DNA of 64,000 bases from Flavobacteriales bacterium (lineage in GTDB: Bacteria > Bacteroidota > Bacteroidia > Flavobacteriales_D > Crocinitomicaceae). Positions 37,476 to 43,194 of this stretch are shown one piece after another. Below the pieces are notes generated by a model, which saw nothing but the letters and a program-made list of their open reading frames with translations, searched no databases and was not told the DNA's origin. Within the stretch, counting starts at the first letter, position 1. Each line of letters starts with the position of its first letter. The stretch lies in contig CANJLG010000001.1 in assembly GCA_947475095.1 (NCBI GenBank), forward strand, positions 1-64,000. Direction: 5' to 3'. The translations under genes and the position numbers were made by a program.

Positions 37476-38665
37476 GAAGCTAAGGCTGTAATGCCAGGCA
37501 ATTCCTTTCCTTCAAAATATTCTAATAGTGCCCCCCCTCCTGTGCTTATATAACTTACTTCGTTTTCAAAGCCAAACTTTAATACTGCTGCAGCACTATC
37601 TCCACCTCCAATTAGACTAAATGATCCATTCTTCGTTGCTGAGGCAACAGCCGAAGCCATCGATTTTGTGCCTTCAGAAAAAGACTCCATTTCAAATACC
37701 CCCATTGGACCATTCCATAAGATTGTCATACTTTTGGACAGGACATTTTCGAATTCACGGCTTGACTTTTCTCCAATATCTAAGCCCATCCATCCATCAG
37801 GAATTTGATTGCTTAAGCAATTAGTTCGCTTAGCGGTGGGCGAAAATTCATCGGCTATTACCGAATCAATGGGCAAATGAATTTGCACACCATTTAGCTT
37901 AGCCTTTTCGATAATAGCTAAACAGATAGGAATGCGTTCTACTTCACATATTGAGTTTCCTATATTACCACCTAATGCTTTGATAAATGTATACGCCATT
38001 CCTCCACCAATAATAATGTGATCAGCTATAGACAAGAGGTTTTCAACGATTAAAATTTTATCTGAAACCTTTGCTCCGCCAATAATAGCAGCAAATGGCT
38101 TTTTGCCATAAGTTAGAACTTTCTGGGCGTTTTCAATTTCTGCTTTCATCAAGAACCCCATCATTTTGTCAGCTGGAAAAAAGGAAGCAATTTGAGTTGT
38201 ACTTGCGTGAGCGCGATGCGCGGCACCAAAAGCATCATTTACGAAACAATCCCCTAAACTTGATAGTTTTTGTGCAAATTCGATCGAACCGGCGGTTTCC
38301 TCTTTGTGAAATCGGACGTTTTCAAGTAACAATACTTCACCTGGCTGTAATGATTTAGAGTGTCTAATTGCCTCATCGCCAATACAATCCATAGCAAATT
38401 GAACCGGCAAATCTACTAAATCAGAAATGCATGGCAAGATGTTTTTTAAGGAATACTGTTGCTCAGGTCCATTTTTTGGACGTCCAAAATGCGAGATTAA
38501 AATTACAGCACCACCGTTCCCTAAAATATACTTAATCGTCGGTAAGGCCGCTCTAATTCGTTTATCATCTAGTACATTGAATGTTAATTTATCCAATGGA
38601 ACATTAAAATCCACTCGAATTATTGCCTTCTTTCCCTTAAAATTGTAGTCGGTAATGGTAATCAT
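37472..38665 (-). CDS. pgk: Phosphoglycerate kinase
   Basis: The 397-residue enzyme makes ATP from 1,3-bisphosphoglycerate, the step after GAPDH. Motifs are IIRVDFNVPLD, ILISHFGRPK, LLLENVRFHKEE, the IIGGAKVSDKI hinge region and the C-terminal FSLIGGGDSAAAVLKF. I place the start at the ATG at 38665 (MITITDYNFKGKKAIIRVDF); the frame stays open upstream to a TTG, but the extra residues do not match the family. It lies tail to tail with gap instead of in the common gap-pgk operon. Confidence 0.95.
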   Translation of the reverse strand: MITITDYNFKGKKAIIRVDFNVPLDKLTFNVLDDKRIRAALPTIKYILGNGGAVILISHFGRPKNGPEQQYSLKNILPCISDLVDLPVQFAMDCIGDEAIRHSKSLQPGEVLLLENVRFHKEETAGSIEFAQKLSSLGDCFVNDAFGAAHRAHASTTQIASFFPADKMMGFLMKAEIENAQKVLTYGKKPFAAIIGGAKVSDKILIVENLLSIADHIIIGGGMAYTFIKALGGNIGNSICEVERIPICLAIIEKAKLNGVQIHLPIDSVIADEFSPTAKRTNCLSNQIPDGWMGLDIGEKSSREFENVLSKSMTILWNGPMGVFEMESFSEGTKSMASAVASATKNGSFSLIGGGDSAAAVLKFGFENEVSYISTGGGALLEYFEGKELPGITALAS

Positions 38666-41588: not shown

Positions 41589-42050
41589 ATGATAGAAATC
41601 GGAAATCTAATACCAAAGGTTAATGGCCTAGATCAATTAGGAGAAACAATACATTTGGCTGACCATAAAGGAAAAAAAACAGTTATCTATTTTTATCCGA
41701 AAGATGATACGCCTGGCTGTACGGCACAAGCTTGCAACATAAGAGATAATTATGAACTGCTACTTGAAAAAAATATACGGATCATCGGTGTAAGTGCAGA
41801 CTCATCTAGTTCACATGCTAAATTTACAAAAAAATACGATTTGCCTTTTCCCTTAATTGCGGATACCGATAAAGAAATAATCAAGGCATTTGGAGTTTGG
41901 GGAGAAAAAAAATTCATGGGAAAAACCTACGATGGTATCCACAGAACAACCTTTTTAGCAAATGAATTAGGCGAAATTGTTTCAATCATTGCAAAACCAA
42001 ACACCAAAGAACATAGCAAAGAAATTATAGAATTATTTAATATTAAATAG
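41589..42050 (+). CDS. bcp: Thioredoxin-dependent peroxiredoxin (Bcp/PrxQ)
   Basis: The 153-residue cytoplasmic thiol peroxidase reduces hydrogen and alkyl peroxides. Peroxidatic Cys44 and resolving Cys49 lie five residues apart in PKDDTPGCTAQACNIRD, the arrangement of PrxQ/BCP. Its Thr and a downstream Arg (IHRTTFL) complete the active site. It is a separate unit upstream of recA. Confidence 0.94.
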   Translation: MIEIGNLIPKVNGLDQLGETIHLADHKGKKTVIYFYPKDDTPGCTAQACNIRDNYELLLEKNIRIIGVSADSSSSHAKFTKKYDLPFPLIADTDKEIIKAFGVWGEKKFMGKTYDGIHRTTFLANELGEIVSIIAKPNTKEHSKEIIELFNIK

Positions 42051-42051
42051 C

Positions 42052-42068
42052 TCGTAAATAGTTTACGA
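42052..42068. promoter_or_regulatory. Perfect palindrome upstream of recA, candidate operator
   Basis: TCGTAAA-TAG-TTTACGA: seven-base arms with a three-base centre. It starts just after the bcp stop and lies where the -33 element of the recA promoter should be. There is no T-run, so it is not a normal terminator. A repressor site is inferred. Confidence 0.5.
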
Positions 42069-42079
42069 CCTATAGCGAT

Positions 42080-42087
42080 TACCTTTG
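42080..42087 (+). promoter_or_regulatory. -7 element TACCTTTG of recA
   Basis: Exact match to the TAnnTTTG consensus, 31 bases before the recA ATG. No TTG is found at the normal distance upstream; the palindrome at 42052-42068 occupies that place. Confidence 0.55.
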
Positions 42088-42118
42088 ACAAAAATTAAAA
42101 AACTAAACACTTAAAAAA

Positions 42119-43150
42119 ATGGCAAAAAAAGAAATAAATGAAGAAAAGCTTAAAGCGCTTCAATTAACAATGGAAAAATTAGATAAAGCATACGGAAAGG
42201 GATCCGTTATGAAACTTGGTGATGCACCAGTAGAGAAAGTTGATGTAATACCTACAGGTTCATTAACATTAGATTTAGCATTAGGCATTAATGGTTACCC
42301 AAAAGGCAGAGTGGTGGAAATTTATGGCCCGGAATCTTCTGGAAAAACAACCTTAGCAATTCATGCGATAGCAGAAGTACAAAAACAAGGCGGAATAGCT
42401 GCATTTATTGATGCAGAACATGCATTCGATCAATTTTATGCTAAGAATCTAGGTGTAGACATCGCTAACTTATTAATATCACAACCTGATAATGGCGAAC
42501 AAGCATTAGAAATTGCTGATAACCTAATCAGATCAGGTGCAATTGACCTAATTGTAATCGACTCTGTAGCGGCATTAACACCTAAAGCGGAAATTGAAGG
42601 AGAAATGGGAGACTCACAAATGGGTTTACAAGCAAGATTAATGTCCAAAGCACTAAGAAAATTAACTGGCTCCATCAACAAGGCAGGAACATGTTGCATT
42701 TTTATCAATCAATTACGTGATAAAATAGGGGTTATGTTTGGAAATCCTGAAACAACTACAGGTGGAAATGCATTAAAATTCTATTCATCCATTAGATTAG
42801 ACATTAGAAGATCAACACAATTGAAAGATGGGGAAGAAATTGTAGGTAACCGAGTAAAAGTTAAAGTCGTAAAAAACAAGGTGGCTCCACCGTTTAGAAA
42901 AGCAGAGTTTGACATCCTTTATGGTACAGGCATCTCCAAAATTGGGGAGATTATCGATCTTGGTGTTGAACTAAATGTTTTAAAGAAAAGCGGATCCTGG
43001 TTCTCCTATGGAGAAACTCGCTTAGGACAAGGTCGAGATTCAATTAAATCGATTTTATTGGACAACCCAGAATTAGCTGAGGAATTAGAAGCGAAAATTA
43101 AAGCCCTGTTAGTAAAGGGTACACCTATTGAACTCGTCATCCAAGAATGA
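42119..43150 (+). CDS. recA: Recombinase RecA
   Basis: The 343-residue protein drives homologous strand exchange. Walker A is GPESSGKTT (about 69-77), Walker B is [10 protein letters not shown], and loop L2 is [14 protein letters not shown]. The full-length core is present with a short C-terminal tail. It ends at a clear terminator and is preceded by a palindrome that may control it. Confidence 0.98.
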
Positions 43151-43163
43151 TTTAAATAAAAAT

Positions 43164-43194
43164 AAAAAACGGTTTGAAGCCGTTTTTTTTTTGC
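43164..43194 (+). terminator. Rho-independent terminator of recA
   Basis: AAAACGG-tttgaag-CCGTTTT hairpin running into a tract of ten T, starting 14 bases after the recA stop. Confidence 0.8.

Follow-up and report, generated by a model that had tools for sequence, protein, structure and literature searches.

Which regulator reads the palindrome that covers the promoter of recA in this member of the Crocinitomicaceae, and does it place the gene under DNA-damage control? The window analysed here, a stretch of 64,000 nucleotides, carries a bcp-like peroxiredoxin gene of the AhpC-TSA family (41589–42050, + strand) and, 3′ of it, recA (42119–43150, + strand, 343 aa), the gene that we take to be controlled.

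A conserved operator at recA and other repair genes

Between the two genes lies the core palindrome TCGTAAATAGTTTACGA (42052–42068, no assigned strand), our proposed WYL-activator operator. On the forward strand it reads TCGTAAA-TAG-TTTACGA, with perfect 7-bp arms about a 3-bp centre, and it contains the conserved core CGTAA-N5-TTACG (42053–42067). Eleven bases (42069–42079) separate it from the −7 box TACCTTTG (42080–42087, + strand), which is of the sigma-A type TAnnTTTG. Palindrome, arms, centre and this distance are all as the original prediction had described them, as is the absence of a T-run after the palindrome. With one mismatch beside the core, the arms extend into a longer imperfect palindrome (42047–42073, no assigned strand; 12-nt arms, 92%), which overlaps the stop codon of the bcp-like gene and whose outermost bases agree with the AG...CT flanks in the order-wide logo described below. 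In Flavobacterium psychrophilum, TAnnTTTG occupies positions −12 to −5 according to the available text of PMC9723704; if the same holds here, the midpoint of the palindrome falls near −32, where a −33 element would be sought, and transcription of recA would be expected to start near 42092. No −33 element was recognisable under the palindrome at this promoter. Just 3′ of recA, a CGG/CCG hairpin followed by a T run (43164–43193 of the window) looks like the recA terminator.

The palindrome alone is unremarkable, since the window holds 13 palindromes with 7-bp arms and a 3-bp spacer against a mean of 7.9 (sd 2.7) in 20 first-order Markov shuffles; for the extended form, scored as 11 or more of the 12 pairs that lie 2 to 13 positions from the centre, the count is one, against 0.3 in 10 shuffles. 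We regard the palindrome as real because it is conserved at recA in same-genus relatives. We sought recA in 60 genomes, 37 from the same genus and 23 from the wider order, and found it in 56; four same-genus genomes were left out, two in which recA was not found (G010, G035) and two in which its locus was incomplete (G029, G032). Conservation in close relatives, on which the original prediction had made itself depend, extended to at least nine of the ten core bases ahead of recA in every one of the 33 same-genus genomes examined (10/10 in 30; 9/10 in L043, L059 and L062). Across these sites, identity was 94–100% in the ten core columns, 45–100% in the inner five and mostly 33–82% in the flanks.

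Among the order-level genomes, recA was found in 21 of 23. A 10/10 site lay directly 5′ of recA in five (G038, G044, G049, G054, G056), before a bcp-recA pair in three (G039, G050, G057), and before a 132-aa gene followed by bcp and recA in G042; a 9/10 site preceded bcp-recA in G037 and G048, an 8/10 site was present in G046, and G045 carried an altered operator at recA. In families f2 and f4 the site stands before bcp, so there bcp is probably co-transcribed with recA as a single operon. The site was not found at recA in 8 of the 21 (G040, G043, G047, G051, G052, G055, G058, G059), the searched upstream sequence amounting to some hundreds of bases in G055 and G059. RecA was also compared with GTDB species genomes, where 77 of the best 80 named loci of a longer list had enough upstream DNA. 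Seven of these 77 had a 10/10 core (L249–L253, L255, L257) and L279 a 9/10 core; the eight are named as Crocinitomicaceae, Crocinitomix or Flavobacteriales, with the exception of L252, a MAG labelled Chitinophaga pinensis whose label we doubt. Within the same best-listed 77, the core was absent at recA from other Flavobacteriales-named records (e.g. L254, L270, L273) and from Flavobacterium, and CTAA-N5-TTAG stood at recA in ten (Pedobacter, Mucilaginibacter, Runella, Marinoscillum, a Chitinophagales MAG and others). This dyad (n = 10) and CGTAA-N5-TTACG (n = 7) were mutually exclusive, no genome of the 77 having both.

Elsewhere in the source genome the site is rare: the 17-mer, allowing up to one mismatch, occurs once, and the exact core three times, namely at recA, on contig C4 (37846–37860) before a 102-aa gene (37900–38208), and on contig C7 (86004) inside a coding sequence, so that only recA and the 102-aa gene combine a recA-type site with a promoter. 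Across 199 genomes of the order, the composite motif CGTAA-N5-TTACG-N15/16-TTTG gave 326 sites in 138 genomes, against 22 sites for the reversed pattern, and it was present in 22/22 same-genus genomes of that set. We read the genes behind 72 sites, drawn from tool-picked loci (30) and loci hand-picked from the matches listed (40), a selection that favoured site-rich genomes rather than a random one and counted one recA locus twice (L382, L416). Behind them stood recA (19), radA (4), dinB (3), umuC (1), xthA opposite a radA (1) and a ~105-aa protein (17 by BLAST match and three by resemblance to the eye), while 24 of the 72 had other genes, or none found, behind them. The targets tested were assigned by NCBIfam or Pfam to RadA, DNA polymerase IV, UmuC and exonuclease III. 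The logo of 69 unique sites reads AGAA-CGTAAATAG[TA]TTACG-WWCTRC, followed after 11 nt (46 sites) or 12 nt (23 sites) by TANNTTTG, the ten core bases and the 11–12 nt spacing having been fixed by the search pattern. The site thus lies over the −35/−33 region at a set distance from the downstream box, 11 and 12 nt being the only spacings that the pattern allowed.

The proposal of a DNA-damage-control site therefore stands, as the site is kept at recA in relatives and recurs at other DNA-repair genes; nor are its copies random around the genome, a pattern that would have counted against it. Its predicted recurrence near further repair genes held at the scale of the order (radA, dinB, umuC, xthA), but in the source genome it reached only recA and the 102-aa gene. 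On this sequence evidence, we conclude that the palindrome is a regulatory site at the recA promoter, common to other DNA-repair genes across the order, and that it marks a putative DNA-damage regulon.

In relatives from the order, some copies of the site stand before genes for an IS1595 transposase, a serine recombinase and an HsdM-like N6-adenine methyltransferase (L402, L409, L371, L182), so mobile or defence genes may use the same switch. In one genome, G200, motif plus promoter occur in eight identical copies, with a ninth that is nearly so, on contigs C4, C9, C12, C13, C29, C35, C36 and C51; several lie within ~100 bases of a contig end, suggesting a repeated, perhaps mobile, element with a damage-type promoter.

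Candidate readers of the operator

A protein with WYL and WCX domains (Pfam) was first met as a neighbour of the site in family f9. Its ortholog in the source genome is encoded outside the window (G000 contig C25, 22738–23757); the WYL and WCX domains score over the cut-off, and the HTH comes from the structural model and structure match only. The model (pLDDT 79, pTM 0.48) comprises an HTH, a helical bundle, WYL and WCX. By profile, the protein matched PafBC (E = 1e−20) and DriD (3e−15); Foldseek returned DriD bound to ssDNA and DNA (8tp8) as the best match and also PafBC on RNA polymerase, with E near 3e−14 and full-length TM-scores of 0.34–0.49 against the DriD and PafBC chains.

When whole loci were scanned, perfect sites adjoined the WYL gene in 11 of 39 fetched loci of 3 kb and in 5 of 30 earlier WYL loci, versus 0 of 30 S24 loci. 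By family, the fetched loci with a perfect site numbered 10/17 in f9, 1/8 in f3, 0/1 in f4, 0/1 in f8 and 0/12 in f1, the family of the source genome, with none near L204. In G042 the site that precedes the recA operon coincides with the end of the WYL gene. Taking the 21 order-level genomes with recA, a WYL ortholog was present in 13/13 with the site (the altered G045 included); six of the eight without a recA site had no ortholog, and the other two (G043, G059) had a site beside the WYL gene. Within the genus, the ortholog was missing from four of the 33 genomes examined: G007 (99% complete) and G025 (98%) carry the recA site with only distant WYL proteins, and in G016 and G018 (85% and 81% complete) the recA site is present and no ortholog was found. 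Over all 199 genomes, 125 had both composite motif and WYL ortholog, 44 WYL only, 13 the motif only and 17 neither (Fisher p = 0.002, relatedness ignored); the corresponding numbers at ≥95% completeness were 96, 20, 3 and 8.

The putative recognition helix and the operator change together. The helix reads ST[IVL]EKD in 24 WYL proteins outside f1 whose genome or locus has at least a 9/10 CGTAA-type site. An SLST[IV]DKD helix accompanies TGTAA-N5-TTACA, at the same place and with 11-nt spacing, in f9 (L434, L440) and in f8 (L442), which branches apart from f9 in the WYL tree. Helices of this type also occur in G103 and G067 (both SLSTIDKD) and in G106 (SLSTVDKD). In G045 (f10), the helix is STIQKD and CGCAG-N5-TTGCG stands, again at 11 nt, before recA and beside the WYL gene. 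There are exceptions: G057 keeps a CGTAA operator with the helix SASTIDKD, L439 (SLSTIDKD) has a mixed site and L428 (STIEKD) only a 7/10 remnant, and no site was seen in L431 and L438 (both SLSTIDKD). A Fisher comparison of helix against operator set 24:0 against 1:4, ignoring relatedness and leaving out L439 and L428. This co-variation, which rests on three evolutionary events, weighs more than any other line of evidence that the WYL protein is the reader; its proposed role at the sites of DNA-repair genes is based on the co-variation together with the gene linkage.

The other candidate belongs to the S24 family. According to the available text of PMC8565304, the SOS response of Bacteroidetes is governed by an S24 protein with the box CTAA-N5-TTAG or GGA-N5-TCC, with diverged boxes in the Weeksellaceae. 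The original prediction had named no LexA box for the phylum; boxes have been published, and they differ from the core found here, the recA site reading GTAA-ATAGT-TTAC and matching neither form. In the source genome (assembly 98.7% complete) the single S24 match is an HTH_3-S24 protein, and a canonical LexA, with its own wHTH and S24, was not found, the only S24 match having HTH_3. GTAA-N5-TTAC occurred in 0/30 S24 promoters of the genus (L219–L248) and a GATTA-N5-TAATC dyad in 16/30, so the S24 protein seems to have a separate box; no perfect core was present in 108 kb of S24 loci. The S24 promoter of the source genome (L002:2150–2330, contig C20) has a palindrome TTAAAAAATAATC-N8-GATTATTTTTTAA over TAACTTTG. 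Short dyads alone are uninformative, because their counts in the source genome fall below those of reversed controls (CTAA-N5-TTAG, 81 versus 117; GTAA-N5-TTAC, 56 versus 125). At order level, the S24 protein is missing from G046, which has sites, and present in G040, G051, G052 and G055, in which no recA site was found, and it tracks the recA site less well than the WYL protein does. Within the genus it tracks the site no worse, being missing from three of the 33 examined genomes (G014, G018, G031) versus four for WYL.

A proposed damage-activated switch and its alternatives

We consider it rather probable that a dimeric WYL activator of the PafBC/DriD kind binds the palindrome and switches recA on upon DNA damage. 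The site, its conservation, its fixed spacing, its target set, its linkage to the WYL gene and the helix–operator co-variation are read from the sequence. That the WYL protein binds the site is what the latter two suggest, and its action as an activator rather than a repressor is proposed by analogy. The recA promoter has a −7 box and no recognisable −33 element. Upon DNA damage the WYL protein would be switched on, most likely by single-stranded DNA; the two HTH domains of the dimer would hold the CGTAA half-sites flanking the −33 position, and RNA polymerase would be recruited to recA and, in the source genome, to the ~102-aa gene. In the larger genomes of the order, the switch may also cover radA, dinB, umuC and xthA. 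Damage-triggered activation is proposed because of the analogy with DriD, PafBC and SiwR. Single-stranded DNA as the signal is the weakest step: the arginine pair R211/R214 of PafB is needed for ssDNA binding (available text of PMC11804915), and by our mapping the first position is apparently A, G or E in all 20 aligned WYL proteins, while the second is invariant (R218).

The S24/LexA reading, which was tested over 60 genomes and 30 S24 promoters and ranked second, takes the site for a diverged box of a non-canonical LexA repressor that covers the −33 position until RecA-driven self-cleavage. The shared layout of two 4-bp dyad halves around N5, the diverged boxes of the Weeksellaceae (PMC8565304, available text) and the presence of one HTH_3-S24 protein in the source genome, with homologs in nearly all genomes of the genus, speak for it. 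We find it unlikely, since none of the 30 S24 promoters holds GTAA-N5-TTAC and about half hold a different dyad, the S24 loci contain no perfect core, the protein is distributed unevenly against the site at order level, and neither the WYL linkage nor the co-variation is explained; the S24-type regulator named in the original prediction is accordingly not favoured. The WYL protein might also read the site as a repressor, blocking the −33 region and leaving upon DNA damage. Some WYL regulators of defence systems are reported to act in this way, the site lies over −33, and linkage and co-variation fit equally well. However, the source-genome promoter shows no −33 element beneath the site, the spacing of 11–12 nt to the −7 box is fixed, and both DriD and PafBC, the WYL protein's nearest relatives of solved structure, activate transcription, making repression quite unlikely. 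The repressor operator originally predicted is thus not borne out, the anatomy fitting a WYL activator at least as well.

It is improbable that another conserved regulator of the order reads the site. Such a regulator would account for G007 and G025, which have sites and no WYL ortholog, and for the composite motif in 13 of 30 WYL-less genomes, but several of these 13 are incomplete, and the operator changes coincide with changes of the WYL helix in three lineages. Finally, the palindrome could act as an RNA hairpin, for example as terminator of the bcp transcript. Its predicted fold (−8.0 kcal/mol, z = −2.4) was equalled by 3 of 200 shuffles; nevertheless, the T-run is absent and the palindrome is found again ahead of various other genes with a fixed spacing to the −7 box, which makes this reading very improbable.

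The proposed WYL activator resembles several described regulators without coinciding with any. DriD of Caulobacter crescentus, a WYL activator of an SOS-independent DNA damage response, binds a pseudo-palindromic site that covers a weak −35 element and keeps a constant distance to the −10 box, with its DNA-binding domains flanking sigma-4 (PMC12340889, preprint, available text). It shares with our protein the domain order HTH–helical bundle–WYL–WCX, and its site shares this layout with the proposed operator; in contrast, the targets given in the available text are didA, bapE, recJ and dnaG, not recA, and its site is 20 bp rather than CGTAA-N5-TTACG (PMC12340889). PafBC of mycobacteria, switched on by ssDNA, is a WYL-WCX activator of DNA-repair genes including recA and the best profile match of the WYL protein, whereas the available texts describe a heterodimer on a non-palindromic motif (PMC6789036, PMC11804915), and of the two PafB arginines that contact ssDNA, one is, by our mapping, not kept here. 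SiwR of Mycobacterium smegmatis is a WYL homodimer and genotoxic-stress activator that binds a promoter palindrome, with its gene beside its targets; as far as the available text goes, it differs in controlling adjacent DinB/YfiT-like genes, not recA, through a 19-bp palindrome from −35 to −10 (PMC10693628). The S24 LexA of Bacteroidetes belongs to the same phylum, targets recA, umuDC and dinB, and has a dyad-N5-dyad box, but that box is CTAA-N5-TTAG or GGA-N5-TCC (PMC8565304, available text).

Together, these comparisons suggest that the system is a damage regulon of the WYL type, new in its setting and its operator, whose core includes small uncharacterised proteins. The characterised WYL damage activators PafBC, SiwR and DriD come from mycobacteria and Caulobacter, with LexA working alongside, and to our knowledge the Bacteroidota lack a canonical LexA. 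A search of the open-licence PMC literature, with subscription papers and bioRxiv outside its scope, gave no paper on such a WYL regulon in Bacteroidota among the matches listed. We hold it about evenly balanced whether one order of Bacteroidota runs a recA-centred damage response through a single WYL activator in place of a LexA-type repressor, with small, fast-evolving core targets of ~105 and ~80 aa and an S24 LexA-like protein that has a separate operator. If true, an activator can hold the core of the bacterial damage response in a phylum without canonical LexA, and operators that changed along with the recognition helix would offer natural variants for tests of WYL specificity.

Small proteins behind the operator

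The ~105-aa and ~80-aa proteins would be new candidate damage-response effectors. The former, small protein A (102 aa in the source genome, L139:1555–1863), gave a model with pLDDT 88, no Pfam or NCBIfam family above cut-off and no PDB match at E = 0.001 or better. In an alignment of 22 small protein A sequences (A1), identity to the source-genome protein was mostly 10–16% outside the genus, so that it is uncertain whether all 22 form one family. A ~80-aa protein (…SRPxGxNxYxW…) recurs behind the site in f9, f8 and f4, often beside the WYL gene (e.g. L425:2266–2499, L210:1340–1615, L169:1226–1468); the one tested, from L169, matched no Pfam or NCBIfam family. For the G042 protein of 132 aa, a candidate HIRAN-like protein, Pfam likewise gave no match. 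HIRAN-domain proteins do occur beside the small gene or directly behind the site in L179, L180 and L174 (PF08797 in L179 and L180).
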